From Methyloversatilis universalis (lineage in GTDB: Bacteria > Pseudomonadota > Gammaproteobacteria > Methylococcales > Methylococcaceae): DNA of 64,000 nucleotides. Both the position numbers and the translations under genes were made by a program. Numbering within the stretch: position 1 is the stretch's first letter; each line of letters starts with the position of its first letter. Shown here in pieces: positions 1,703 through 21,007 of this stretch. The stretch is taken from positions 1-64,000 of the forward strand of contig DYIL01000015.1 in the NCBI GenBank assembly GCA_020723665.1. The letters are read 5' to 3'. The notes below the pieces were generated by a model. It saw only the letters and a list, made by a program, of their open reading frames with translations, ran no database searches and had not been told where the DNA came from.

Positions 1703-2743
1703 ATGCCAATCAATCCTTTACCCCAGCATAAGCTTCGCGTCCGCATCGTCGCTCCGGCGCGTCTGCACATGGGCTTCCTCGACCTCAGCGGGTCCTTGGG
1801 GCGGCGTTTCGGCAGTATAGGCGTCGGCATCAATGAAATTGCGACCAGACTCTCATTAATGCCTTCGGATCGGCTGTCGGCCCATGGCCCCGGCGCGGAT
1901 CGGGCCGTCGCGGCCGTGCGCAAGTTCGTCTCCGCGTTGGGACGGGATTTCGCGGTCGAGATTCATGTCGAGGAGGCGATACCGGGCCACATCGGACTCG
2001 GCTCCGGCACGCAGCTCGAACTGGCCGTGGGTATGGCTTTGTCGCGGCTTTTCGGCCTCGACTTAGGGGTACGGGAACTCGCGCCGATCATCGAGCGCGG
2101 GGCACGTTCCGGCATCGGCATCGCGGTATTCGAACAGGGCGGCTTGGTGGTCGACGGTGGGCGCGGCGAAAACACGGTCATCCCGCCGGTCGTCACCCGT
2201 CTGGAGTTTCCCGCAGATTGGCGCCTCATTCTGGTTCTGGACGAGCGGGATCTCGGGCTTCATGGTGAGGATGAGATCGAGGCTTTCCGGGCCTTGCCGG
2301 TTTTTCCCGCCGAGGAGGCCGCGCATCTCTGCCATTTGCTGCTCATGAAGGGCTTACCCGCATTAGCCGAGCGCGACATTCGTGGTTTCGGCGAGGTCAT
2401 CGCGGAATTGCAGCGTTCGGTGGGCGATTATTTCGCGCCGGCTCAGGGCGGCCGCTTCACCAGCGCCGACGTTGCCGAGGCCTTGTCTTTCCTGGAATCG
2501 CAAGGCGCCGTCGGCATCGGTCAAAGCTCCTGGGGCCCGACCGGTTTTTGCCTGGTCGAGAACGCGGCGCTGGGGGAAACGCTGATCCGTGCGGCGCGGC
2601 GGCAGTTCGCCGCTAGGGCCGGCATCCGGTTCCTGCTGGCCACCCCGCGCAATCAAGGCGCCGATGTCGTATTCGAGCGGGCGGATGCGACGCGGGAAAA
2701 GTCTTTCGCGTGTAAAGCCGGTGCTCGGGCCGACCGGCCGTGA
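1703..2743 (+). CDS. mptG: Beta-ribofuranosylaminobenzene 5'-phosphate synthase (GHMP superfamily)
   Basis: RVRIVAPARLHMGFLDLSGSLGRRFGSIGVGI and GLGSGTQLELAVG motifs; H4MPT context. Confidence 0.85.
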   Translation: MPINPLPQHKLRVRIVAPARLHMGFLDLSGSLGRRFGSIGVGINEIATRLSLMPSDRLSAHGPGADRAVAAVRKFVSALGRDFAVEIHVEEAIPGHIGLGSGTQLELAVGMALSRLFGLDLGVRELAPIIERGARSGIGIAVFEQGGLVVDGGRGENTVIPPVVTRLEFPADWRLILVLDERDLGLHGEDEIEAFRALPVFPAEEAAHLCHLLLMKGLPALAERDIRGFGEVIAELQRSVGDYFAPAQGGRFTSADVAEALSFLESQGAVGIGQSSWGPTGFCLVENAALGETLIRAARRQFAARAGIRFLLATPRNQGADVVFERADATREKSFACKAGARADRP

Positions 2744-2759
2744 AACCGCTGATCGATCC

Positions 2760-3893
2760 TTGGGAAGCCTGCACGATTTACCGGAACGCCTGCTGCTGGT
2801 CGGCTGCTCGGCGAGAATGCTGGCGCAATCGGCGGCGCGCGCCGGAATTCGGCCGGTTTCGATCGATCTTTTCGCCGATCGGGAGACGCGCGCTTGCTCG
2901 GCATATTGCGAGACCGTCGACGCCGCCGACATCGGCTTCGAGCGGGAAAGCCTTTTGCGGGCTGCCGAGCGCCTGGCTCCCGCGGGGCGTGGGTATGCCT
3001 TGGTCTACGGCAGCGGCCTGGACGTCGATTCCGGTATTCTTGAAGAACTCGCGCGAGGGCGGATGCTGTACGGCAATCCGCCGGAAATTCTCCGTTTATT
3101 GAAAACGCCCGATACCTTTTTCGACATGCTTCGGCGACTCGGCATTCCGTATCCGGAATCCGGCCGGATACGACCGCCCGATCCGGAGAATTGGCTGCTG
3201 AAGTCTGGCCGCAGCGAAGGCGGCAAGGGCGTGCGTTTTTGCTCTCGAGCGGAACCGGGTTCGAGCGCCTATTACCAGCGCCGGCTTCCCGGCAAGGCCA
3301 TGTCCGCCTTGTTTCTCGCGAACGGAGAAGACGCGTGGATCATCGGTTTCAATACGCTGCGCACCGCTGATCATCTCGTCGGTCAGCCGTTCTTGTTCGC
3401 CGGTGCCGTCAATCGAGTGGACCTCGCGCCCAGACAGCGGCTGCAGGTGCGGACGTACGTCGAGCGCCTGGTCCGAGCGGTTCCGCTCAGAGGATTGAGC
3501 AGCCTGGATTTCATGCTCGATGGCGAAACCTGTCGGGTTCTGGAAGTCAATCCCAGGCCGAGCGCCACCATGGCCTTGTACGACGATGATTTTCCGCAGG
3601 GATTACTGGCCGCGCACATTCGAGCGTGCCGCGGCGAGATGCCGGATGCGATGGCCGCAGGCCGAGCCGTTCGGGCATTCAAGGTGTTTTTTGCGCCGTT
3701 CGATCTCGAGGTATCGGAAGGGACGAGATGGCCGGACTGGTGCACGGATACGCCGGTGACGGGTACGCGAATCGGCGTTGGCCAGCCGGTATGCACCGTT
3801 TACGCCGAGGGAGCGGACCAACAACAGGTAGAACGCCTGATCGAACGGCGGGAGAGCGAGTTGTTCGAACGATTGTACGCAGCGCGGAGTTAG
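2760..3893 (+). CDS. ATP-grasp domain protein of the H4MPT cluster
   Basis: [16 protein letters not shown] ... [29 protein letters not shown]-grasp pattern; TTG start at 2760 is a guess. Confidence 0.7.
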
Positions 3894-3940
3894 CCGGGTA
3901 CAATCACGTTTTTGTCAATAAACCGGGCAAGAGGATAACC

Positions 3941-4936
3941 ATGCAACATACTGTCAGCGTAAATGCGCACGCGCTTCCCATCGTCAAATACATGATCGCC
4001 AACGCCGACAGGCTGCGGCTCAAAGTCGACAAGCTGGGAAACGGCTGCACCGTCATCGACGCCGGCATCGATGCCGTGGGCGGTCTGGAGGCGGGGCGCT
4101 TGATCGCGGAAATCTGCATGGGCGGGCTCGGAACGGTTACGTTGACCCACTCGGCGACCTTCGGCCGCTGGCCGCTCACCGTCAACGTTCATTCCACGAA
4201 TCCCGTGATTGCCTGCCTGGGCAGCCAGTACGCCGGCTGGAGCCTGTCCCATGGAGAGGGAAAGAACGCCTTTTATGCGCTCGGTTCGGGGCCGGCGCGC
4301 GCGCTGGCGACCAAGGTCAAGGACGGCAGCGAGGAGCCCGTGGAAGAGCTCTATAAGGAATTGGGCTATCGCGACCACGGCAAGGAGACGGCCATCGTGA
4401 TGGAGGTGGACAAGGTTCCGCCGGTCGAGGTGATCGAAAAGATCGCCAAGGCGTGCAAAGTGGACACCAGCGGAGTGAACGTCATCTTGACGCCGACATC
4501 CAGCCTCGCCGGCGGCATGCAGGTCGTAGGCCGCGTACTGGAAGTCGCCTTGCACAAGGCCCATTCGCTCCATTTCCCGCTGGGCAACATCATCGACGGC
4601 ACCGGCACCGCCCCGGTTCCGCCGCCTCACCCCAATTTCGTCAAGGCCATGGGGCGGACCAACGACGCCATTCTGTTCGGCGGCACCGTGCATCTGTTCG
4701 TGAAGGGCAGCGACGAGGCGGCGGAAATGTTGGCCAACGAGCTGCCGAGTTCGGTTTCGCGCGATTACGGCAGGCCGTTTGCCGAGGTGTTCAAGGATTA
4801 CAAATACGATTTCTTCAAGGTCGATCCGATGCTGTTCAGCCCGGCCAGTGTCATCGTCACGGCCGTCGAGTCCGGTCGGAGTTTCCACGCGGGCAAGCTC
4901 GACGAAGCGCTACTGGAGCGGTCCTTCGGAGAATAA
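3941..4936 (+). CDS. mch: N5,N10-methenyltetrahydromethanopterin cyclohydrolase
   Basis: [43 protein letters not shown] ... typical Mch; RBS-like gaggat upstream. Confidence 0.92.
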
Positions 4937-4937
4937 T

Positions 4938-5852
4938 TTGGGCACTATTGCGATCATCACCGAAGATCCGGGCTGGCACGGCGCGCGCCTGCGCGAGGCT
5001 TTGGCGGCGAACGGCTATGGCCATCGTTACGTCTCCCTGACCGCCTGCCGGCTGAATCTCGAGTCCGGCGGTTTGCCGGTGATCCTGCCAGGCTTCGAGG
5101 GGGGGCTTCCCGACGGCGTTTTCGTGCGCGGCGTGCCCGGCGGATCGCTGGATCAGGTGGTGTTTTACTTGGATGTGCTGCACGCTCTGAAGCTGCTCGG
5201 GATTACGGTGTACAACGACGGCCGCGCGATCGAGCGTACCGTCGACAAGGCCATGACCAGCTTCGTGCTGCAGCGTGCCGGCATACCGACGCCGCCCACC
5301 TGGGTGCTGGGCAGCCGCGAAGAGGCGGTCGAATTGGCGGAGCGCGAGTTGCGGGCGGGCCATCAGCTCGTGTCCAAGCCCCTGTTCGGCTCCCAGGGAC
5401 AGGGTTTGCAGCGGTATGAAAAGCCGGAGGACCTGGCCCACTTGAGCGACGGCAACGGCGTCTTCTATCTGCAGCGTTTCGTCGGCTGCGGCGAGCAGCC
5501 CCACGACTTCCGCGTATTCGTCATCAGGGGCAAGGCGGTGGCCGCCATGCGGCGCTGCGGTGTCACCTGGCTGAATAACGTCGCCCAGGGCGCCCGCTGC
5601 GAGCCGGTGCGTCTCGACGACCTGCTGCTGTGCCGGCTGGCGGAGGATGCGGTGAAGGTTTTGGAGATGGGATACGCGGGGGTCGACATCATCCGCGATC
5701 ATCACGGTCGTTACAGTGTGCTCGAGGTCAACAGCATTCCGGCGTGGAAGGGCCTCCAGAGCGTCAGCAAGGTCTCGATCGCCGATCTACTGGTCGAAGA
5801 CTTCCTGGCGCTTTGCCGTCCCGAATCTCACGAGGAAATCCGGGTTCGGTGA
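4938..5852 (+). CDS. RimK-type ATP-grasp ligase (glutamate-ligase-like) in H4MPT cluster
   Basis: AIITEDPGWHGARL ... VSKPLFGSQGQGL ... VLEVNSIPAWKGLQ; TTG start directly after mch stop. Confidence 0.75.
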   Translation: MGTIAIITEDPGWHGARLREALAANGYGHRYVSLTACRLNLESGGLPVILPGFEGGLPDGVFVRGVPGGSLDQVVFYLDVLHALKLLGITVYNDGRAIERTVDKAMTSFVLQRAGIPTPPTWVLGSREEAVELAERELRAGHQLVSKPLFGSQGQGLQRYEKPEDLAHLSDGNGVFYLQRFVGCGEQPHDFRVFVIRGKAVAAMRRCGVTWLNNVAQGARCEPVRLDDLLLCRLAEDAVKVLEMGYAGVDIIRDHHGRYSVLEVNSIPAWKGLQSVSKVSIADLLVEDFLALCRPESHEEIRVR

Positions 5853-6745
5853 CGACGGTGCCTGTTCAACGGGACGCTTTATTGTCCGCTTATCTCGAGT
5901 CTTGCGAGACGGAACTTCGCGCTTTCAAACCCGGTAACGTCAGCGTTTATTCGGAAGCCCACGATATGACCGTGGAAGACTTCCGGCGCAGCGCCGCTGC
6001 GAGCGGGCCTTTCCTGTGCGACCCCGATCTTTCCCTGGGCGAGAAAATCTACCACGCGACTCGGGCCACCCGTGAGGCTGTCCCCTGCAATACCAATCTC
6101 GGCATCATTCTGTTGGCCGCGCCCCTGTTTCAGGCGGCCCAGACGATTCGCGAAGGCGAAACGCTCAGGGGTGCGTTGCAGAGAGTCCTGCTCGCCACGA
6201 CGCAAGCCGACGCGGACTGGGCTTACAAGGCCATTCGGCTGGCGCAGCCTGGCGGCCTCGGCGAAGCTCCGGAGCAGGACGTTCGCGATGCGCCGGAGGT
6301 CACTTTGCTCGAAGCCATGCGCCTAGCGGAACATCGCGATCGAATCGCTTATCAATACACTAATTCTTTTGTAGATATTTTTGAATTTGCCATTCCAAGT
6401 TATCATAAGAAATTGTCCCAGTGGGGCGATAAAGAATGGTCGGCAGTGGCGGTGTTCGCAGGCTTGCTCAAGCGTATTCCCGACAGCCACGTCGAGCGCA
6501 AATTCGGCGCTCGATATACAAGGACGATTGCCAGCCGAATGACACAGATCGATCGGGCGTTATCCGTTTCCGATAGACCAGAACATGTCATACCGCTCCT
6601 GCGCGAAGTGGATGCAGAGTTCAAGTCCTACGGAATCAATCCGGGTACGACGGCCGATCTCACAGTGGCGTGTTTGCTGGCCGCCAGGCTGGAAACGCTG
6701 CTGAGTCAGTGCCAGCGAAAGACGGGCCGTTTCCGGGAAGCATAA
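5849..6745 (+). CDS. Triphosphoribosyl-dephospho-CoA synthase (CitG/MdcB)-like protein
   Basis: [30 protein letters not shown] ... [12 protein letters not shown] motifs; GTG start overlaps upstream stop. Confidence 0.8.
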
Positions 6746-6848
6746 AGGCACGTCGGCACAAATAGGGAGTTTTGCCTCGCTTGAGGGAGGAGGATTAGGC
6801 AGTGTCGTTACTTCGAACGTTTTTACTTTTACCAAAGAGGAGTTAGCA

Positions 6849-7361
6849 ATGGGGAAAATCAATAAGATGTTGGTGGGTGAGGCTTTGTGCGGCGGCGGCA
6901 ACGAAATCGCCCACATCGACCTGATCATGGGACCGCGTGGCAGCGCTGCAGAGACGGCTTTCGCCAACTGCATCACCAATAACAAGGACGGATTCAGCAG
7001 CTTGCTCGCAGTGGTAGCGCCGAACCTGATGGCCAAGCCGAACACTGTCATGTTCAACAAGGTGACCATCAAGAACGGCAAGCAGGCTACCCAGATGTTC
7101 GGGCCGGCGCAGCGCGGCGTCGCCATGGCTGTGGCCGATTGCGTCGAAGACGGCACCATTCCTGCCGACGAAGCCGACGACATCTTTGTCTGCGTAGGCG
7201 TATTCATCCACTGGCTGGCGGAAGACGACGCGAAAATCCAGGACTATAACTACGAAGCCACCAAGCTGGCCATCAAGCGTGCCGTTGCCGGCGAGCCCAC
7301 GGCAGCCGATGTTGTGGCTCAGAAGGGACAGATCGAGCATCCCTTCGCCGCGCACAAATAA
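6849..7361 (+). CDS. fae: Formaldehyde-activating enzyme
   Basis: [51 protein letters not shown]; strong RBS aaagaggag. Confidence 0.95.
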
Positions 7362-7372
7362 TCGCGTTTATC

Positions 7373-7407
7373 GAAAAACGTTGCCCCGCTCCGGGGCAAC
7401 GCTTTTT
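7373..7407. terminator. Rho-independent terminator, probably bidirectional, between fae and the HisA-like gene
   Basis: GAAAAACGTTGCCCCGCTCCGGGGCAACGCTTTTTC: long GC stem with A-run/T-run on both sides. Confidence 0.8.
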
Positions 7408-7429
7408 CGTCCAGAACCGCGCAGTCTCG

Positions 7430-8137
7430 TCAAATCACCGCCTTCCCCAAATCCTCGATCAGCCGCGAGTCGACAGCGCCGGCATGCAGTGCACTGGCAA
7501 TCAAAACTCCGGCCGCTCTCATCGTTTTGAGCCGTCTCAGATCGTCTCCGTCCCGTACGCCGCCGGCTACGATGAAGCGCCGGTCGGGGTGCTTCAGGTT
7601 GAACGATGCTAAACGGTCGAAATCGGGACCCGCCGCACTGCCCACATGGGCGAGGTTCATCAAGATCACGCGCTCCGGCCAAAGTTCCGGACCGTCCAGC
7701 AACGACTCCGCGCCCAAGAATCGATCGCCGAGAAAGTCCAGCGACAGGATGAAGTCCGGCTCCAAGCGGGATAGAAGCGGCAAGGATTTTTCGGAAAGCG
7801 ATTCGCTGCCGACGACGGTGCGAACATTCGGCTCGGATCGAACAAAAGGTGTATTCCCAACGTTCGGGAGTCCTCGATCTATCCAGAATTCGATATTCGG
7901 AAAACGGCGCGTGAGACCGATCGCCAAATCGGTTTGGGGGGCTTTGTCCATGAGCGCATCGAGATCGGCCAGATAAATCCTTTTGAACGGATGAAAAGCG
8001 AGCAGACCGCGTATGACGGTCTCCGGTTCGGCGGTCGAGCACAATGTACTTTGCAGCGGGCGATAATGTTCGCGCCGCCCTTCCTTTGCGTGCACGGCGA
8101 GGCCGTTCATGATGTCGATGACGGGAATGATTTCCAT
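7430..8137 (-). CDS. HisA/HisF-like TIM-barrel protein of the H4MPT cluster
   Basis: MEIIPVIDIMNGLAVHAKEGRREHYRPLQS ... FIVAGGVRDGDDLRRL. Confidence 0.75.
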   Translation of the reverse strand: MEIIPVIDIMNGLAVHAKEGRREHYRPLQSTLCSTAEPETVIRGLLAFHPFKRIYLADLDALMDKAPQTDLAIGLTRRFPNIEFWIDRGLPNVGNTPFVRSEPNVRTVVGSESLSEKSLPLLSRLEPDFILSLDFLGDRFLGAESLLDGPELWPERVILMNLAHVGSAAGPDFDRLASFNLKHPDRRFIVAGGVRDGDDLRRLKTMRAAGVLIASALHAGAVDSRLIEDLGKAVI

Positions 8138-8148
8138 CGGCTGAGGGT

Positions 8149-9159
8149 ATGAGAATACTGGTTTTCGAATATATTACCGGCGGCGGCATGCTTGGCGAAA
8201 CGATTCCGCGTTCGCTGGCGCGGGAAGGGGAGTTGATGCTTACGGCACTCCTCGGGGACTTATCCGAGTTGCCGGAGGTCCGGACGGTCACGCTCAGGGA
8301 CGGACGTCTCCCCGTTTCCGATCGGGCGTTTTCCGGAACCGAGTGGATTTTTTTGGATCGGAAAGACGATCTCGAGCGTCGTCTAGATAATGAGATCGAA
8401 TGCTGCGATGCCGTCTGGCCTATTGCGCCCGAAACCGGCGGCGTTCTGGAGCGCATTTGCCGTCGGGTCGAAGCGGCCGGTAAGACACTGTTGGCCAGTT
8501 CGGGCGACGGCGTGAGCCTTGCCGCGAGCAAGTTTGCAACCGTGAAGCGCTTGGAAAAAAACGGTGTCCCGGCAATCCCGACCTTTGCGCTAGACGCATC
8601 GACGTCCTTGGAATTCCCTTTGGTAGTGAAGCCGGACGACGGCGTCGGCTGCGAAGGCGCCCGCATCGTCGAAACCGGGGACGAGTGGGAAGCTTGGGCG
8701 GCCGAAGTCGACGCCCCCACCCGTTATGTCGCGCAGCCTTTGGTCGAAGGCGAGCCGCTGAGTCTGTCCGTACTCTTTTGTCACGGAAAGGCGCGGCTTC
8801 TGAGCTGTAATCGGCAGCGGATCGTCAGGTCGCGGGGCGGGTTTAGCTTGCGTGGCTGCGAGGTCGGAGCCATCCGGACGGGCCTTGCCGCATACCAGGC
8901 CCTGGCCGATAGGCTTGCGGAAGCCATGCCGGAGCTCTGGGGCTATGTCGGGGTCGATGTGCTGCGGTGCGAACAGGGGCTCAAGGTGCTCGAGGTGAAT
9001 CCTAGATTGACCACCTCCTACGCCGGGCTGCGGCAATCCTTGGGCGTCAATCCGGCCGCGCTGGTTCTGGAATCGTGGCGGAGCGGAACCTTGCCGGAGG
9101 TCCGGCCGCTGGCGGGAAAGGCCATCGAGATTCATTTGGAGTCCTGGGATGACGGTTGA
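8149..9159 (+). CDS. ATP-grasp ligase, MfnD-like candidate
   Basis: FEYITGGGMLGE ... VVKPDDGVGCEGARIV ... DVLRCEQGLKVLEVNPRLTTSYAGL; next to the MfnF-like gene. Confidence 0.7.
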   Translation: MRILVFEYITGGGMLGETIPRSLAREGELMLTALLGDLSELPEVRTVTLRDGRLPVSDRAFSGTEWIFLDRKDDLERRLDNEIECCDAVWPIAPETGGVLERICRRVEAAGKTLLASSGDGVSLAASKFATVKRLEKNGVPAIPTFALDASTSLEFPLVVKPDDGVGCEGARIVETGDEWEAWAAEVDAPTRYVAQPLVEGEPLSLSVLFCHGKARLLSCNRQRIVRSRGGFSLRGCEVGAIRTGLAAYQALADRLAEAMPELWGYVGVDVLRCEQGLKVLEVNPRLTTSYAGLRQSLGVNPAALVLESWRSGTLPEVRPLAGKAIEIHLESWDDG

Positions 9160-10207
9160 AGTGATCGGTTGGGACATCGGGGGCGCCCATCTCAAGGCGG
9201 CCGCCTTGAACGGTGCGGGCGAGATCGTCGCGGTCATCCAAGAGCCCTGTCCCTTGTGGCAGGGGATGGATCGCTTGCACGACGCGATGGGACGGATTCT
9301 GGACACCGTTTCGCCGCAATCCGGCTGCCGTCATGCGGTGACCATGACCGGCGAACTGGCGGATTTTTTCGAAAATCGGGAGCAAGGCGTTCTCGCCTTG
9401 GTCGAAACGATGATTCAGCGCTGTCCTAAGAACACCGTAGGTATCTTCGCAGGATATGACGGATTTCTTGATGCCAAGACGATCACTCCGGAAAGCATTC
9501 CCAAGATCGCCTCGGCAAATTGGCTGGCGAGCGCGCTGTGGGTGGCGGAAAATCTGCGCGAAGCCGTGTTCATGGATATCGGGAGCACGACGACGGATAT
9601 CGCGCTGATCTGCGGCCGCCGGGTAGAAAGTCGAGGCTATACCGATTATGAACGTATGCGCTACGGTGAACTGCTTTATTCCGGGATAGTCCGCACGCCG
9701 GCAATGGCGCTCGCCGATCGGGCGCCTTTCGAAGGCGAGTGGATCGGTCTCATGGCCGAGCACTTCGCGACCGCGGCCGACGTCTACCGGTTGTGCGGCG
9801 AGTTGCCCGAGCATGCCGACCAGATGCCGGCGGCCGACGGCGGCGAAAAAACCGTCACGGGAAGCGCCAGGCGTCTCGCTCGCCTGTTCGGGCGGGACCT
9901 GGAGTCGGCATCGATGAAGCAATGGCGGCAGGCGGCCCGGTTCTTTCGCGAGCGGCAACTCGCAAAGCTTCGCTCGGCTCTGGACCGCCAGCTTTCGCGC
10001 GGTTTAATAGGCGACGACGCGCCTTTGATCGGTGCTGGCGTGGGGCGGTTTCTGGTGCGAGAATTGGCGGCGCGATCGGGTTTTTCTTATAGAGATTTCA
10101 GCGAACTGTTGCCAATGTTGACGTCGCAAAACGATTTTCACGCTGCGGATTGCGCCCCGGCTGCAACCGTAGCTTGCCTGGCGATGCGGGAGGTGGGGCC
10201 GACATGA
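9149..10207 (+). CDS. Hydantoinase/oxoprolinase-like H4MPT-linked C1-transfer pathway protein (MfnF-like)
   Basis: VIGWDIGGAHLKAAALNGAGEIV ... FMDIGSTTTDIALICGRRV ... GAGVGRFLVRELA. Confidence 0.8.
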   Translation: MTVEVIGWDIGGAHLKAAALNGAGEIVAVIQEPCPLWQGMDRLHDAMGRILDTVSPQSGCRHAVTMTGELADFFENREQGVLALVETMIQRCPKNTVGIFAGYDGFLDAKTITPESIPKIASANWLASALWVAENLREAVFMDIGSTTTDIALICGRRVESRGYTDYERMRYGELLYSGIVRTPAMALADRAPFEGEWIGLMAEHFATAADVYRLCGELPEHADQMPAADGGEKTVTGSARRLARLFGRDLESASMKQWRQAARFFRERQLAKLRSALDRQLSRGLIGDDAPLIGAGVGRFLVRELAARSGFSYRDFSELLPMLTSQNDFHAADCAPAATVACLAMREVGPT

Positions 10208-11610
10208 CGCCTAGAATCGAAGAGCTGCCTTATTTCGAGGACAGCGCCGCTCTGTTTCTGCCTTGGGCGGAGAGGCGCTGGGCGGTTTTTCTGGACAGCG
10301 GATTTCCGCATTGCCGGCAAGGGCGCTACGACATCATTGCGGCCGATCCGATTACCACGCTCGTCACGCGCGGGCCGCTCACCGAGATTCGATCGCAGGG
10401 CGCTATCACCCTGTCGCCGGAGGACCCGTTTACCCTGGTCAAGCAATTCCTCGGCGAGAAGACTCCGCAAATCCCGGGGCTGCCGTTTTGCGGCGGCGCC
10501 ATCGGATACTTCGGCTACGACTTGGCGCGAAGGCTGGAGAAGCTGCCCGAGCGGGCTCTGGATGCGGAGAACATCCCGGAAATGGTCGTCGGCATCTACG
10601 ACTGGGCGGTCGTGGTGGATCACTGGGCGCGTCGCACCTGGCTGGTCGCGCAAGGGCGCGATCCCGCCCTCGCAGTGCGCTGGCCCCACCTGGTTCAGAC
10701 CTTCAGCCAAATCCAGACCATAGGTTGGCAGCTGGCCGATTTCTATCTCTTCAGCGACGTCGTGTCGAATATGAGCCGCGCCTATTATGCAAAGGCTTTC
10801 CGACGCATTCAGCATTACATTCGCGAGGGCGACTGCTATCAGGTCAATCTGGCCCAGCGCTTTTCGGCCTATTGCACCGGCAATCCTTGGGCGGCTTACC
10901 AGCTTTTGCGGCCGTACAATCCCGCTCCGTTCAGCGCCTATCTCAACCTTCCGCAGGTTCAGGTACTGAGTTCCTCGCCGGAGCGCTTTCTCAAAGTGAC
11001 CAATGGCATCGTGGAAACCAAGCCGATCAAGGGTACCCGTCCTCGCTCGAAGGACCCTTCGACAGACGCCGCCAAGGCGCAGGAACTTCGCGATAGCATT
11101 AAGGACCGGGCCGAAAACCTGATGATCGTGGACCTGTTGCGCAACGATATCGGCAAGAACTGTGAGCCGGGCTCGGTTCACGTGCCTGGTTTGTTCGAGA
11201 TCGAAAGCTATGCCACCGTGCATCATTTGGTGAGCACCGTCCGCGGTCGATTGTCCGAAGGACATAGCGCCGTGGATCTCTTGCGCGGCTGTTTTCCCGG
11301 TGGGTCCATCACCGGAGCGCCGAAGATTCGCTCCATGGAAATCATCGAAGAGCTCGAACCGCATCGCCGAGGCGTCTACTGCGGCTCGATCGGCTATGTC
11401 GGCTTCGACGGCAACATGGACAGCAATATCGCCATCCGTACCTTGGTGCACTCGGAGGGCACGATCCGCTTTTGGGCCGGCGGCGGCATCGTGGCCGATT
11501 CGATCCTCGACCAGGAGTACCAGGAATGCTACGACAAGGCTTCGGCCCTCTTGCATCTGCTCGAGCAATTTCAAGTCCAGAGAATCGGTGCCGATCACGT
11601 GGGTCGTTAA
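10204..11610 (+). CDS. pabB: Aminodeoxychorismate synthase component I
   Basis: YFGYDLARRLEKLP ... SSSPERFLKVTNGIVETKPIKGTRPRSKDP ... VDLLRNDIGKNCEPGSV ... GGSITGAPKIRSMEIIEELE. Confidence 0.92.
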   Translation: MTPRIEELPYFEDSAALFLPWAERRWAVFLDSGFPHCRQGRYDIIAADPITTLVTRGPLTEIRSQGAITLSPEDPFTLVKQFLGEKTPQIPGLPFCGGAIGYFGYDLARRLEKLPERALDAENIPEMVVGIYDWAVVVDHWARRTWLVAQGRDPALAVRWPHLVQTFSQIQTIGWQLADFYLFSDVVSNMSRAYYAKAFRRIQHYIREGDCYQVNLAQRFSAYCTGNPWAAYQLLRPYNPAPFSAYLNLPQVQVLSSSPERFLKVTNGIVETKPIKGTRPRSKDPSTDAAKAQELRDSIKDRAENLMIVDLLRNDIGKNCEPGSVHVPGLFEIESYATVHHLVSTVRGRLSEGHSAVDLLRGCFPGGSITGAPKIRSMEIIEELEPHRRGVYCGSIGYVGFDGNMDSNIAIRTLVHSEGTIRFWAGGGIVADSILDQEYQECYDKASALLHLLEQFQVQRIGADHVGR

Positions 11611-13718: not shown

Positions 13719-14660
13719 TCAAATCTTCTGCGCCAAGAGGTCGATCTGATGAACGATCAAGCCGAGCTTTCCCGCTGCCAATCGTTCGAAGCGTTCCCGG
13801 TACCACCGGTCGAGCGAGTCCCCCGAGAATTGTCCGGACCTTTCGGCTTCGTCCCGGATCATGCTCAGTAGAGCGGTGAGGCAAGTGGCGTCGCGGTTGC
13901 GATAAGCGCAGCGCGACGGCGTGATGTTCCAGTCGGAGGTGCCGTAGGCGATCACTTCGAAACCGGTTTCGCCGAGGACGCTGTGCAGCCGTCTTCCTGT
14001 ACGGGCGCCACCGCTGCTTTCGTCCCATATCCGGCGTTGTTCCATGGAGGCGTCGTACACGTCGAGGATGCGGTTTTCCAGGACCTCGTCGACGTAGACC
14101 GGAAATAGCGCGGTTTCGCCGTCGTAATTGATGGTGCTGTAGAAGACTCCCTTCGGCCGCAGCCAGCACGCTATCCGCTCGGCCATGGTCCGCAGCGGCA
14201 GAAGATCCATCACCGCGTGGGCAATGACGGCGTCATGGGAGCCGGGAGCTTCATTCGGTTGGAAATGTCGCAGGTCGCTGCAGACGAACTCCACGACGAT
14301 CTCGCGCTGCCCTTGCCGGGCGCGGATGCCGGTCGGCCTCTCGGCGACATCCGAGCCTTTCTGCCGTAATAGGTCGGCCGTTCCGGCTCGGGCAATGTCC
14401 AACAGCGCGTCGTCCCGATCCACGGCGGTGATGTGCAGATGGGCGTCCGTCGGCAGACTCAGCAGGCGCTGTACGGAGGCGCCGGTGCCGGTGCCGAGGT
14501 CGAGGCAGGTCAAGCGTGGCTTGCCGGATACCCAGCGAGCGAACTCGGTCCGGACCTCGCGGTTCAGACTGCGCTCGTCGAGCGCGAATTTGGCTTCGAG
14601 ATAGTCGTGGAAGGGAATGTCCACCGCGGCCGTTAGAGCGGCCCGCCGAAGGCCGCCCAA
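13719..14660 (-). CDS. Class I SAM-dependent methyltransferase
   Basis: LTCLDLGTGTGASVQRLLSLPTDAHLHITAVDRDDALL motif I. Confidence 0.8.
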   Translation of the reverse strand: MGGLRRAALTAAVDIPFHDYLEAKFALDERSLNREVRTEFARWVSGKPRLTCLDLGTGTGASVQRLLSLPTDAHLHITAVDRDDALLDIARAGTADLLRQKGSDVAERPTGIRARQGQREIVVEFVCSDLRHFQPNEAPGSHDAVIAHAVMDLLPLRTMAERIACWLRPKGVFYSTINYDGETALFPVYVDEVLENRILDVYDASMEQRRIWDESSGGARTGRRLHSVLGETGFEVIAYGTSDWNITPSRCAYRNRDATCLTALLSMIRDEAERSGQFSGDSLDRWYRERFERLAAGKLGLIVHQIDLLAQKI

Positions 14661-15007
14661 TCCCGCTCGCTTTCCCAGAGCTTGACTGTCATCTTGACGC
14701 CGTGCAGGGCTACCCGGTCCCTGAGTTGCTCCCAGAACACGCGGGCGAAGCGTTCGAGGCTGGGATTGATGCCGCGAAAAGGCTCCAGGTCGTTGAGCAC
14801 GCGGTCCTTGAACTCCCCGATCAGCGCCATGGCGGCCTGCTCAAGATCCACGATGTCGATCAGATAGCCGTGTCGGTCGAGCTGCTCGCCCTCGATCAGT
14901 ATTTCCGCCTTGTAGTGGTGGCTGTGCTCGCGGTTTTCGTCGCCCCAGTCTCCGCCGATCAAAAAATGGCGGGCAATGAAATCGCGGGTGATCGCAAGCT
15001 GGTACAT
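14633..15007 (-). CDS. 6-pyruvoyltetrahydropterin synthase / QueD-superfamily protein lacking cysteine
   Basis: FIARHFL ... HSHHYKAEILIEGEQLDRHGYLIDIVDLEQA ... VLNDLEPFRGINPSLERFARVFWEQL. Confidence 0.75.
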   Translation of the reverse strand: MYQLAITRDFIARHFLIGGDWGDENREHSHHYKAEILIEGEQLDRHGYLIDIVDLEQAAMALIGEFKDRVLNDLEPFRGINPSLERFARVFWEQLRDRVALHGVKMTVKLWESERDWAAFGGPL

Positions 15008-15024
15008 GGCTGTTCCTCGGATCG

Positions 15025-16050
15025 TCAGGTGTACTCGAAGACAGGCTGCAACACGCCCGCCCGTTTGCTATCGATCAGCTCGAAGGCGTCCTGGCAGGCG
15101 CTGGGCGCGAAGTGGTGGGTGATCAGTCTTTCCGCGCGGATTTCGGCAAGCCACTCCCAGGCGAGGTCGAGCCGGCGTTTCTTGCTCCACCGCCCGGCGA
15201 GACGCGGATCGATCGTGCTGACCTGGCTGGAAATCAACCGGATCCGCTGCCGGTGAAAATGGCTACCGAGATCCATCGGCGTCTCGCTCTGGCCATACCA
15301 TGAGCCGATGACGACGCGGCCGGCGAAGCCGGTCAGTTCGATCGCCTGGTTCAGGGCGGCGAGATTTCCCGAAACTTCGATGGCGGCATCCAGCCCGTCC
15401 GCTCCTTCGTAGAACAGGCAGTCCTTGAGAGCCGCGAACTCGCGCTTGACCTCGGGGTTGATGGATAAGGCGGCGCCGAGTTCGACCGACTTCTGCCGGC
15501 GCATGGCTACGGGATCGGCCGTGATCAGTTCCTCGAGCGGAAACCGGGCGAGAACGGCCGTGATGAGCAGCCCGACGATGCCTTGCCCGAAAACCATGAT
15601 CCGCTCACCCGGCAGAGGTGCCGTGTCGAAAACCAGATTCAGTGCCGATTCCATATTGGCGAGAAACAGGGCTCGTTCCGCCGGAACGTCCTCCGGAAGG
15701 ACCAGGCAATCCTTTTTATCGACCACGGCGTAGTTTTGATGGGGGTGATAGGCGAAAACCCGACGGCCCAGCCATTCCCGGTCTTCGTCCGCTCCGACGG
15801 CGGCGACCTCACCGACCAAGGCGTAACCGTATCGGAACGGATAGCTAAAACTGCCCTGAAGGCTGCCGATGGACGTGTCCTGAGGCAGATCCGAGGGCGC
15901 CTCGCCCCGGAAAATGAGCGACTCGGTGCCCGGACTGATGGCCGAGCACAAGGCTTTGATCAGCAATTCTCCGTTTCGCGGCGCGGGCAGATCGATTTCC
16001 TGCACCGTTACCGTTCTCGGGGCTACATGATAAATGGCTTTTACTCGCAT
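15025..16050 (-). CDS. Zinc-binding (MDR) dehydrogenase
   Basis: FRYGYALVGEVAAVGADEDREWLGRRVFAYHPHQNYAVVD; GERIMVFGQGIVGLLI. Confidence 0.8.
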   Translation of the reverse strand: MRVKAIYHVAPRTVTVQEIDLPAPRNGELLIKALCSAISPGTESLIFRGEAPSDLPQDTSIGSLQGSFSYPFRYGYALVGEVAAVGADEDREWLGRRVFAYHPHQNYAVVDKKDCLVLPEDVPAERALFLANMESALNLVFDTAPLPGERIMVFGQGIVGLLITAVLARFPLEELITADPVAMRRQKSVELGAALSINPEVKREFAALKDCLFYEGADGLDAAIEVSGNLAALNQAIELTGFAGRVVIGSWYGQSETPMDLGSHFHRQRIRLISSQVSTIDPRLAGRWSKKRRLDLAWEWLAEIRAERLITHHFAPSACQDAFELIDSKRAGVLQPVFEYT

Positions 16051-17363
16051 CAGAGGTAACCGACCGGACCGAAAGCGATGATATCGGAACCCAGAATATG
16101 GTACTGGCAGTCCGTGATGCTTAAGGGCGCTTGTTCGCCGGAACGGCAGAGATCGTCTATGGCTTTGAGTCCGCCTATGATTTTTGGAGTTATTGTAATC
16201 ACGCAGTAATTCACTAAATGATGTTTGAGAAAGGTGCCGATGATCTTTGATCCGCCTTCGACCATGAGGGTTCGAATGCCGAGTTCGCTTAGTTTCGCCA
16301 GTGTCTCTTTCAAGTCGACGCAGCCGTCCCCGCTTGCCCCCACCTCGAGAATTTTCGCGCCGGCCGCGAGCAGCGCCTCTCTTTTGGCCGGGTCCGATTC
16401 GCCGGTGGTCACGATGACGGGCGGTTTTTTCGACTGTCTCAGAACGCGGCAGTCCGGCGGTGTCCGCAGGGTGCTGTCGAGGATGACCGGCTGCGGGTCG
16501 TCGCCTTCGTAGTAACGGACGTTGAGCTGGGGATCATCGCTGAGAATCGTGTTGACGCCGACCAGCAGCGCGTCGTGGTGCGCCCTTAGGAAATGCGTGA
16601 GCGTCAGCGATTGCCTGGAGCTGAGGGCACAGGGAGCCTGGCTGTCGACGGCAATGCTGCCGTCTATGCTCTGGGCGTAGGTCAGAGTGACGAAGGGGCC
16701 GCCTTCGACCGATGCATGGGCCAGCGAGAGTTGGTCGATCAAGGGCTCGACAAAGGCCAGTTCGCGATGGAACGGCGTTCTTTCCCGGAACGTCAGCAAA
16801 TGAGCCAATTTCTCGGCCTTGGAGCGCAAGTATCCCGCGTTGTCGTCGTGATGACCGACTTCTATGGGTATGCGCGCTTCGACCTCGATGCCGTATTCGG
16901 TGAGTTCGTCGACCTTGCGGGGGTTGTTGGTGATGAGCCGGATCGATCGAACGCCCAGGTCCTTGAGCATCAGGGCGGCGACGCCGTAGTTCCGTTCATC
17001 CGGCTGATGACCTAGGCTGATGTTGGCCTCCACGGTGTCGAGGCCCCGGTCTTGAAGGTTGTAGGCTTCCAGTTTCTTGCGGAGGCCTATGCCGCGTCCT
17101 TCCTGGCGTAGATAAAGCAGAACGCCGCAGCGTGAACGTCCGAGGTACTGAAGCGTGTGTTTGAGCTGATCCCCGCAGTCGCAGCGCCGAGAGCCGAAGA
17201 CGTCGCCGGTCAGACATTCCGAGTGGACCCGAACGGGAACGCCGCGCTCACCGTTTACGTTCGATTTCACCAAAGCGAGGTGGTCCTTGCCATGCTCGGT
17301 GTAAAGATAAAGGGTGAATTCGCCGTAGCCGGTGGGAATTCGAGTCTTGACCAGGTTTTTCAC
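16050..17363 (-). CDS. GTP cyclohydrolase II fused to a RibD C-terminal reductase domain
   Basis: VRVHSECLTGDVFGSRRCDCGDQL ... LLYLRQEGRGIGL ... LQDRGLDTVEAN (RibA) then FVTLTYAQSIDGSIAVD ... GVNTILSDDPQLNVR ... LMVEGGSKIIGTFL (RibD_C). Confidence 0.88.
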   Translation of the reverse strand: MKNLVKTRIPTGYGEFTLYLYTEHGKDHLALVKSNVNGERGVPVRVHSECLTGDVFGSRRCDCGDQLKHTLQYLGRSRCGVLLYLRQEGRGIGLRKKLEAYNLQDRGLDTVEANISLGHQPDERNYGVAALMLKDLGVRSIRLITNNPRKVDELTEYGIEVEARIPIEVGHHDDNAGYLRSKAEKLAHLLTFRERTPFHRELAFVEPLIDQLSLAHASVEGGPFVTLTYAQSIDGSIAVDSQAPCALSSRQSLTLTHFLRAHHDALLVGVNTILSDDPQLNVRYYEGDDPQPVILDSTLRTPPDCRVLRQSKKPPVIVTTGESDPAKREALLAAGAKILEVGASGDGCVDLKETLAKLSELGIRTLMVEGGSKIIGTFLKHHLVNYCVITITPKIIGGLKAIDDLCRSGEQAPLSITDCQYHILGSDIIAFGPVGYL

Positions 17364-17567
17364 GAGAGATTTCTGCGGGGATCGCGATAAAAAGGCAAAC
17401 AGTATAAACAGCAATATTCCGCAGTCGATACCGAATGGGTTTCGTGCGCCGAGAGCGGTTGCACTCGCCACAAAATACCGGCGTGCCAGCGGGGTCGGTT
17501 CGCGTCGAACAGGCTCGAACGGACCTGCCGATCGACTTTTGAACGGAATGGAAACGCCAGTATATCG

Positions 17568-18257: not shown

Positions 18258-19386
18258 TCATTGAGACGAGCTCGGACCGCCCGGCATCATCCCGCAGGGT
18301 TTCAACACACTCTGCCAGGCGCGGCTGTGACGTTGCAGTGCGGCGTTGAAGCCGTGCCACGGTCCTTGCTCGGATGCGGGATCAAGTGTCGCGGCGTAAT
18401 AGCTCTCGAAGGCGGGGGGAATCGCAACCTTTTGGCCTTTCTGCAACTGTTTGACGCTTTCGACCAAAGGCGAAGCGACTTGGTGTAGCCGGCTGATGTA
18501 AGGCTGGACTTCGCCGGCGTAAAACTTGACGAAGACATTGAAAAGATATTCGGCCCGTCGCCGTCGGGTTTTCTCGCCCATAGGGCACGTTCGCTCCGTC
18601 GATGCGGCTTGCTCCAGAAGCCGCCCTGCCCGGTCCAGATAAAATCCGCTGAGGCTCAGGGCGCGCACGATTTTGCCGCCGGTTTCGGCCTGGAGGCCGA
18701 AATAGTGCTGTTCGAATTCTCCCGGGGGAATCGAAGGCGCTTCCGCGAGCCTCGCGCCCGGCGAGGCGAGATACCGTATCGGACTTTCGAAACGGGCCAC
18801 GGGGACGGTCTCGTTGCATTGAAGCGGGTTTGTAGCCGTAACCATGAAAATTCGGAACTCCCTCGGCCGCGAAGGTGGCGTTCCGGAATGCCTTGGGTAA
18901 ATTGTCGGCTTTTGCTTGTAGGAGCGACTCTATTTTGCGGTCGAATTCCGGGTCTTCGTCCGAACCTCGAAGTCTCACGTCGCGTTCGGAGAGTTTCCGG
19001 AACGTATTCAGCTCGTAGAGCAAACGGCCCCTTTCCGATTGTACTCGCCCGAAAGAGCCATTGTGCGAACTGATATCGGCGATCGGCCCGCAGCGGGTCA
19101 TCTCGAGATGAGTGATGACGCCGATTCGGATATCATCGACCGGCAGCACGATGTCCCGCGCCCTCGGACAAGGCGTGACGGCGGGCATTGCGGCTGCTTC
19201 GTCGATCTCGACCTCGGTTACGTTCGAAAGGCGCTCGAGATAATTTTCGAACATCGCTTCGGGCGAATCGCCGGAACAGCCGGCCGATCCCAGAGCGAGA
19301 ACGATGACGAAAAACCGGGTGAAAGATGCTCTAAAACTACGCTTGGGGTTCGAGTTCACGGCGCCCGTGCCGACGATGGTCTCCAT
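18258..19386 (-). pseudogene. DUF3080-like lipoprotein split by one frameshift near 18.84 kb
   Basis: N-terminal half in ORF 18382..19386 (lipobox ALGSAGC), C-terminal half in ORF 18258..18845 in a different frame; contiguous. Confidence 0.6.
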
Positions 19387-19406
19387 ATCAATAAGGCATT
19401 GAGATC

Positions 19407-20342
19407 GTGAAACAAGTTCTCCTGAAATCGGGAGTGTGGCTCAATCGGCGGAGCGTGCGCTTCGTCCTGGTGCTGGCGGTGTTCGCCTTCATTTTCGCCA
19501 AAATCGATCGCTCCGCGCTGATGGCTCACCTCAGCCGCTTCGACCCGGCCATGGGCGTCGCGATCGTCGGAATCTTCCTGCTCTCGATCGCCGTGTTCGC
19601 CTCGCGCTGGTGGCAGATCAGTCGGGCTTTGGGCGTTCGGGCGCCGTTCAAGGACTTTGTGCGTGTCCTTTGGATCAGCCAGAGCGTCAGCGAGTGCGGT
19701 CCGCCGCTTGTGGTCGGCGAGTTGGCGCGGTTTCAGCTGATGCGAGGCAGCGCGGAAACCTGGCAGCTCATCATCGGCCAGGCCGTGGACCGGTTCTCCG
19801 GGAAGATCGTCCTGCTGCTCATAACGCTTGGACTGACGCCGGTTTACTTGGGGCTGTACAGCGAATTTCCCGCGCTTCAGATCGTCTTGTTCGCGCTGAT
19901 CCTGCTGTCGTCGGCAAGTGTGGCCGCCGTCGTTCTTCGGCGATTTTGGCCGATGGCGCGATCCCATACCGGGATTGTGCTCGCGATCTGCAATCCGCTG
20001 CGGTCGCCGCGCCATTACGGATTGTCTCTGCTGGTCCAGCTTCTGCTAGCGGCGAACTTCGCTCTGGCGGCCGCCGGGCTGGGCATTTCCGGCGATGCGC
20101 TGACCGTGTTCGTGCTCGGGCCGCTGTTGTTGCTGGGCGTCAGTTCGCTGCCGGGGCTAGTTTCCGATTGGGGTAAACGGGAGGCGGCCGCGGTGTTTCT
20201 GCTCGCTCCCGCCGGCCTGACGCCGGAGCAAAGCCTTGCCGTGTCTCTGATCTTCGGTGCCCTGCATTTGTTGACGGCCTTGCCGGGAGCGCTCTTGCTT
20301 CTGCTGCTGCGGCGCCGGGAAACGGTTTCCGCCCCCGAATGA
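19407..20342 (+). CDS. Lysylphosphatidylglycerol synthase TM-region / UPF0104 family membrane protein
   Basis: Multiple TM segments; FKDFVRVLWISQSVSECGPPLVVGELARFQLM ... LSSLPGLVSDWGKREAAAVFLLAPAGL. Confidence 0.75.
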   Translation: MKQVLLKSGVWLNRRSVRFVLVLAVFAFIFAKIDRSALMAHLSRFDPAMGVAIVGIFLLSIAVFASRWWQISRALGVRAPFKDFVRVLWISQSVSECGPPLVVGELARFQLMRGSAETWQLIIGQAVDRFSGKIVLLLITLGLTPVYLGLYSEFPALQIVLFALILLSSASVAAVVLRRFWPMARSHTGIVLAICNPLRSPRHYGLSLLVQLLLAANFALAAAGLGISGDALTVFVLGPLLLLGVSSLPGLVSDWGKREAAAVFLLAPAGLTPEQSLAVSLIFGALHLLTALPGALLLLLLRRRETVSAPE

Positions 20343-20695
20343 ACGGCGCTCGGCTCGATCGGCTGGAAAATCTGCTCGGCGATCCTGTTGCGGACCTGGC
20401 GGAAAAATATCGGCGCGTTCAGGAAGCCTACCGGATCGAGCTCGACTATGCCAGGAGCGCCGAAGCCTACCGGGCTGTGCTCCGGACCGGGAACGAGGAA
20501 CGTCCGGTGGATTTCCCCGGCGTCGGTCACCTGGCGCTCTACTACCGGACTCTGAACGGCCACGTATCGGGGATCTGGCGCAACGATCAGCGACGCTGGC
20601 AACGATTGTCCGGCGAGGAGAACGAGTCGATCGCCCGCGGGCTGCGCGCGGCGCGCAAGCTCGAACCGCCGCGACTGACGGTTCTGCCGCGGCCT
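20339..20695 (+). pseudogene. Truncated DUF3450-like protein (C-terminal part only)
   Basis: LAEKYRRVQEAYRIELDYARSAEAYRAVLRTGNEERPVDFPGVGHLALYYRTLNGHVSGIW resembles the C-terminal part of DUF3450; N-terminal part missing. Confidence 0.5.
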
Positions 20696-21007
20696 GGGCC
20701 CAGGTCGCCGTGTAGCCGCGGTGCGTTCTCCGCTTCCTCCGCAGCGCGGCCGTTTGGGCGCTGCTTGGGGCTTTTCCTCGGTCCGTCCTGGCCGCGCCCG
20801 AGACGCAAGCCGAACGGCCGGCCTCGCCGTCGGAAGCGGCGTTCCGGTTGACGACGGCGCTGGCGGCCAAAGAAGAATCGTTCTTGAGCATCCGCGAGAG
20901 TGCCTCTAACGTCAAACCGTATTACCGGCAACTCGCTCTGGCGGGAGATGCCGCGAGCCAGCGGCAACTGATCGACCGGCTCGCCGACCGCCGACGAACT
21001 GACGCAG

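Follow-up and report, generated by a model that had tools for sequence, protein, structure and literature searches.

A tight operon of four minus-strand genes (17471 to 13719) lies in a 64,000-nucleotide stretch of DNA (contig DYIL01000015.1 of assembly GCA_020723665.1; this whole stretch is hereafter the window) from a Methylocaldum-type methanotroph genome. It encodes a fusion of GTP cyclohydrolase II (RibA; GCHII) with a RibD_C reductase, an MDR-family dehydrogenase, a PTPS-superfamily protein, and a class I S-adenosylmethionine (SAM) methyltransferase (MT). The association of these four genes is conserved, and chance is ruled out as its cause. Judged from sequence, and with a little less than an even chance in our estimation, the operon may encode the central part of a widespread pathway, so far undescribed, that leads from GTP to a 2-amino-4-oxo pyrimidine/pterin-type product; in most carriers, this product would be glycosylated, methylated and probably joined to a phospho-alcohol. 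The four genes are as follows:

16050..17471, minus strand: RibA (GTP cyclohydrolase II)-RibD_C reductase fusion (Pfam); probable true start GTG 17363, 437 aa
15025..16050, minus strand: MDR-family dehydrogenase lacking the catalytic zinc ligands, with an NAD-type Rossmann domain (D179) (Pfam, residue counts)
14633..15007, minus strand: PTPS/QueD-superfamily protein (Pfam, alignments, AlphaFold model)
13719..14660, minus strand: class I SAM methyltransferase (Pfam, family alignment); probable start GTG 14624

A conserved gene set in Bacteria and haloarchaea

The four reading frames and their domains, as named in the first-pass annotation of this DNA, are present. The fusion contains GTP_cyclohydro2 (3e-63, residues 41-202) and RibD_C (1e-42, residues 259-436), and the other three proteins match ADH_zinc_N (1e-9), PTPS (4e-25), and Methyltransf_25/11, respectively. 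The stop of the fusion and the start of the dehydrogenase share a single base (TGATG at 16050), and 17 bp separate the dehydrogenase and PTPS genes. For the fusion, GTG 17363 is a more probable start than 17471, since its alignment begins in many relatives only at about residue 34-37 of the open reading frame (ORF) and the upstream extension contains an in-frame stop in the single-contig relative G005. The methyltransferase probably starts at GTG 14624 rather than at TTG 14660, i.e., 8 bp past the PTPS stop. Of the overlapping ends described earlier, the one at 16050 thus stands, and that at 14633/14660, which resulted from using the longest-ORF start, disappears if GTG 14624 is the true start.

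A scan of the genome collection with an MDR profile yielded 80 named loci, 46 of which had enough flanking sequence for gene counts. RibD_C was found in 45 of these, PTPS in 44, a GT4-like glycosyltransferase (GT) in 43, RibA in 40, a methyltransferase (looked for within cluster loci) in 34, and a CDP-alcohol transferase in 32, where the GT4 and methyltransferase counts are upper limits because both families are large. RibA and RibD_C were fused in 20 and separate in 50 of the loci tested. Carriers belong to the Gammaproteobacteria and several other phyla, and include Streptomyces, Anaerolineales, Pseudohongiella, and haloarchaea; the suggested co-occurrence of the four families in unrelated genomes is borne out by these counts. 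Within the methanotroph family, the dehydrogenase is present in 19 of 38 genomes, most with the order RibAD-MDR-PTPS-MT, and the closest named relative of the operon by this gene is Methylocaldum sp. 14B (G006; 89% MDR identity). A PTPS-anchored scan of 369 genomes of the class gave four matches of at least 130 bits (the genome of the window, G000, as well as G571, G344, and G505), each adjoining an MDR gene, with the next best matches at or below 76 bits. A phylum search with a single PTPS sequence was set aside, as it mostly returned QueD-like proteins; the loci examined from it matched no other cluster gene within 1.5 kb and, when widened, mostly none within about 8 kb.

The pairwise distances of MDR, PTPS, RibD_C, RibA, and CDP-alcohol transferase are strongly correlated (r 0.87-0.92; 0 of 500 permutations). 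The distances of the glycosyltransferase and the methyltransferase correlate with each other at 0.95 and with those of this core at 0.44-0.80, a pattern which suggests that the cluster is made up of a core module plus an exchangeable GT-MT decorating pair. A description of the cluster was not found in the open-access literature.

As in the operon, MDR, PTPS, methyltransferase, and RibA occur in one locus in the SCO6650/SCO6655-type cluster of Streptomyces. That locus also contains GT4 and a CDP-alcohol transferase, a pair found on contig C30 in G000, and it differs from the operon in its Met105-containing RibA and creatininase, its PTPS motif (AxxxHGA versus ExxxHSH), and the lack of a RibA-RibD_C fusion. 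The RibA paralogue SCO6655 reportedly releases the formylated pyrimidine. On a plasmid of S. fungicidicus, the order CDP-alcohol transferase-MDR-PTPS-GT4-MT is accompanied by an LPG_TM frame, a creatininase, and a RibA with Met105. The MDR matches in Methylosinus, Allorhizobium, and divergent Gammaproteobacteria fall in the Streptomyces-type group.

Haloarchaeal plasmids (Natrarchaeobaculum, Haloarcula, Haladaptatus, and Halomicrococcus) carry MDR, followed in most by PTPS, GT4 and/or a methyltransferase. Their PTPS is of the same type as that of the operon (38-43% identity), whereas no RibA or RibD_C was matched in the stretches examined. In Natrarchaeobaculum and Haloarcula pelagica, a GTP cyclohydrolase (GCH) III, which is non-homologous to RibA, lies just upstream of MDR and occupies the place of RibA; Pfam (PF05165) confirms that of Natrarchaeobaculum. 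These genes are located at:

L225, 8243-9004: GCH III adjoining MDR on a haloarchaeal plasmid
L232, 7172-7954: GCH III adjoining MDR on a haloarchaeal plasmid

A GCH of either kind was neither annotated nor matched in the stretches of Haladaptatus, Halomicrococcus, and Natronorubrum, so the first step may be encoded elsewhere in these three. In H. marismortui, creatininase-family and CDP-alcohol transferase genes are found near MDR-PTPS-GT-MT. In S. meliloti, the formyl group of the GCHII intermediate is removed by a protein of the creatininase family (PMC9478397). GCH III, Met105-RibA together with creatininase, and Tyr-type RibA thus appear to arrive at one and the same opened GTP, in support of the initial reaction proposed below. 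A strict pairing of formamidopyrimidine (FAPy)-type GCH with creatininase was rejected, as creatininase also lies beside Tyr-type RibA (L189, L197, and L199).

Predicted enzymes and a proposed route from GTP

The RibA domain of the fusion is predicted to be a GTP cyclohydrolase II, as the GCHII residues C54, C65, C67, R94, Y105, D126, and R128 (E. coli numbering) are all present and the domain passes TIGR00505 with 231 bits against a cut-off of 206. The RibD_C domain carries a Rib7-like signature (TYAQSxDG...THxLRxHHDxLLVG), and the motif YAQSxDG...THxLRxxHD of the cluster RibD_Cs (Gln in 83 of 83) is like that of the Rib7-type reductase 4ha7 and unlike that of B. subtilis RibD. Rib7-type reductases work on the substrate before deamination.

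The dehydrogenase had been labeled a zinc enzyme, a label that its motifs do not bear out. Zinc-dependent MDR alcohol dehydrogenases need a catalytic Cys and the GHE ligands, whereas in the cluster MDR GYA stands in place of GHE (Tyr in 110 of 111 cluster MDRs) and the zinc Cys ligand is present in 40 of the 111. An acidic, NAD-type residue (D/E179) is found in all 111, and the nearest NCBIfam models, i.e., the Zn-dependent oxidoreductase PRK10083, BchC, and Tdh, all scored under cut-off.

The assignment of the third protein as PTPS-like holds by its Pfam match, but the catalytic cysteine is absent: the motif reads E24-N-x-x-H28-S-H30-H31, with Glu where this Cys is expected, and the substrate-anchoring E112 is present. 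Among relatives of this PTPS type, Glu occupies the Cys position in 80 of 81 and E112 is invariant; in the SCO6650 type, Ala replaces both the Cys and one of the zinc His residues. The AlphaFold model (pLDDT 90.9) has as its best PDB match the solved structure of the Streptomyces homologue SCO6650 (3d7j, TM 0.87). The T-fold, zinc histidines, and pterin-anchoring Glu are shared with PTPS-I (QueD), II, and III, but the operon motif ExxxHSH matches none of theirs (CxxxHGH, CxxxxxHGH, and ExxHGH, respectively; PMC5041015), and its Glu lies one position further from the His than in PTPS-III, the dihydroneopterin-aldolase bypass. Further PTPS subfamilies, one with unclear function, are mentioned as well (PMC5041015), so the operon PTPS may coincide with a known extra subfamily. 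A second PTPS, with CxxxHGH, is encoded elsewhere in the genome. For the methyltransferase (model pLDDT 95.8), a fold search against the PDB returned generic class I enzymes only and no specific relative.

In the proposed pathway, the RibA domain would open GTP to 2,5-diamino-6-(5-phosphoribosylamino)-pyrimidinone, a step which rests on the conserved catalytic residues; the chemical steps that follow are what we infer. The fused Rib7-like RibD_C would reduce C1' with NADPH, giving the ribityl form with no prior deamination, and the zinc-less MDR would oxidise the C2' hydroxyl with NAD+ to a 1'-deoxy-2'-ketose, the same compound that GTP cyclohydrolase I (GCH I) forms internally by Amadori rearrangement. 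Closure of the 5-amino group onto C2' would then give 7,8-dihydroneopterin 3'-phosphate, the Glu-type PTPS would work on its side chain, and the methyltransferase, together with GT4 and CDP-alcohol transferase encoded elsewhere in the genome, would decorate the product. The scheme of C1' reduction and C2' oxidation was preferred for three features: every conserved enzyme is employed a single time, the redox balance is even, and no deaminase is required. In its full form, it would be a GCH I-independent pterin route in Bacteria and Archaea: C1' of the GCHII product would be reduced and C2' then oxidised again, in lieu of the Amadori step of GCH I, a PTPS of a new subfamily would act next, and additions of sugar, methyl, and phospho-alcohol would make a new class of membrane-linked or secreted pterin-like metabolites; we put this forward tentatively, as a possible outcome.

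Several points weigh against the pathway as drawn. C2' as the target of MDR was selected on chemical grounds only. With GCH I already encoded in the genome, another way of making a plain dihydropterin seems superfluous unless the operon yields something different. The gene set seems dispensable in part, since two genomes (G017 and G018) have MDR, RibA-RibD_C, and the methyltransferase but no PTPS between them, and another (G016) is without the RibA half. The Ala replacements in the SCO6650-type PTPS imply that the PTPS chemistry may differ between the two types, and, GT4 and MT being large families, some of the GT4 matches within 10 kb may be unrelated. At about 820-1510 in L009/L010 (G017 and G018), other sequence lies between the methyltransferase and MDR, with no cluster-type PTPS.

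Candidate decorating partners and the possible nature of the product

GT4 and CDP-alcohol transferase were not found within the window. Their homologues adjoin each other on C30 (~35.0-36.8 kb), and the pair lies near the operon in Methylocaldum sp. 14B and several other family members. One further candidate is encoded in the window:

19407..20342, plus strand: LPG_synthase_TM membrane protein, tentative accessory part (match to the LPG_TM family)

This protein matches the LPG_TM family found beside SCO6650-type clusters at 1e-34, and the gene is linked to the operon in Methylocaldum sp. 14B too (L054); its membership is tentative because the family is large. A first LPG hidden Markov model had given no match, and the reading of the gene as unrelated was rejected on account of the 1e-34 match. 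In the window (18382-20851), frames of DUF3080 (first half of the profile only) and DUF3450 (last half only) flank the LPG_TM gene; both frames, which lie upstream of the operon, look truncated or frameshifted.

The membrane-type neighbours weakly suggest a lipid-linked or exported product. The main rival to the dihydroneopterin closure is the same pathway with an 8-substituted or open product, in which MDR would oxidise another hydroxyl or act later (e.g., on a glycosylated intermediate) and an 8-substituted pterin, a lumazine-like compound, or an open pyrimidine would become lipid- or sugar-linked. The frequency of GT4, methyltransferase, CDP-alcohol transferase, and LPG_TM as neighbours and the presence of YceI in 16 loci point to such a decorated, possibly membrane-linked product, and the FAPy-type first steps (GCH III, Met-RibA) of some carriers are in line with it as well. 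Nevertheless, this alternative is judged somewhat unlikely, as Tyr105 of the fusion RibA presumably predicts full deformylation and T-fold PTPS proteins bearing a conserved Glu usually have closed pterins as ligands.

Relation to riboflavin and tetrahydromethanopterin synthesis

The GCHII first step and a RibD_C-type reductase are common to the operon and the riboflavin pathway. However, Pfam and NCBIfam found no RibD deaminase domain, RibE, or RibH in the four operon proteins, and the operon reductase is Rib7-like. By Pfam, the fusion also lacks the deaminase expected of the toxoflavin-type GCHII pathway (ToxE-like deaminase-reductase, ToxC, and ToxD; the latter two were not searched by name). 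The suggested check for rib genes elsewhere revealed a canonical operon, nrdR-ribD-ribE-ribBX-ribH-nusB, away from the four-gene operon. Given this separate set and the co-occurrence in unrelated genomes, the four-gene operon, taken together, does not constitute the riboflavin pathway.

The earlier wording "not riboflavin" is nevertheless too strong for the RibA part. Apart from the fusion, the genome search turned up a single GCHII homologue, RibBX, with C54N, C65H, C67V, and R94D, and RibBX-type proteins were without GCHII activity where tested (PMC10012899). Judged by these residues, no intact GCHII other than the fusion was found in G000 (93.9% complete), nor in G005 and Methylocaldum sp. 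14B, which likewise have the fusion plus RibBX. The first-pass annotation had reckoned against its own proposal a fusion that is the only ribA and whose loss brings riboflavin auxotrophy; at the level of sequence, the first half of this holds for functional ribA, the other copy lacking the zinc cysteines. Six relatives without MDR (G009-G014) retain RibA, in most with a RibD_C remnant after it, and in a RibA tree these fall among the Methylococcaceae cluster RibAs. The two relatives scanned, with neither MDR nor the operon type of PTPS, have an intact RibA and a RibD_C domain down to a 26-bit half match:

L246, 1468-2676: orphan RibA-RibD_C fusion with intact RibA and decayed RibD_C
L248, 1468-2676: orphan RibA-RibD_C fusion with intact RibA and decayed RibD_C

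This combination of intact RibA and eroded RibD_C suggests that RibA has been retained to serve riboflavin synthesis and RibD_C solely to serve the operon pathway, and that the fusion RibA probably also supplies the riboflavin synthesis of the cell. In several Methylococcaceae genomes, some of them complete (G004, L263; G015, L279; and G024-G030), the only GCHII matches found were of the RibBX type and lacked the zinc cysteines.

The status of the fusion as sole intact GCHII in three genomes, and the retention of a fusion with intact RibA in relatives without MDR, would also fit a plain housekeeping ribA, with RibD_C as a surplus reductase and the remaining three genes as unrelated passengers. 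This is improbable, because complete ribD, ribE, ribH, and ribBX are present elsewhere, RibD_C, MDR, and PTPS co-diverge, the carriers G001, G007, and G017 hold a second intact GCHII, and in two haloarchaea the neighbour of MDR is GCH III, not RibA. A riboflavin-only reading was rejected on these grounds.

The closeness to a tetrahydromethanopterin (H4MPT) cluster, also pointed out at first pass, is real: an island with beta-RFAP synthase, mch, an MptN-like ligase, a HisA/F-related protein, an MfnD-like ATP-grasp protein, TIGR03123, and pabB occupies 1703-11607 of the window. Proximity to H4MPT genes is shared by the sister genome G007, but was not seen within 10 kb in Methylocaldum sp. 14B. 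With beta-RFAP synthase, mch, MptN-like, and TIGR03123 genes at 1.7-12 kb, and H4MPT genes flanking the cluster in L058 and L224 as well, the operon could be thought a branch of H4MPT synthesis. We regard this as very improbable and reject it, since the other examined cluster loci, including that of Methylocaldum sp. 14B, gave no match to the tested island genes, MDR is absent from half of the methanotroph family, and the cluster is also carried by Streptomyces, Anaerolineales, Pseudohongiella, and haloarchaea, which are not known to use H4MPT in such a way.

A gene set shared by several bacterial phyla and haloarchaea, with no description of its product found, would point to a genuine hole in the knowledge of cofactor metabolism. 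Should the proposed pathway be true, GTP cyclohydrolase I would not be indispensable for making pterins, a function could be assigned to a PTPS subfamily, and many annotations as "6-carboxytetrahydropterin synthase" and "zinc-binding alcohol dehydrogenase" would be wrong. The fusion moreover accounts for a possible source of GTP cyclohydrolase II activity in methanotrophs whose RibBX is degenerate.

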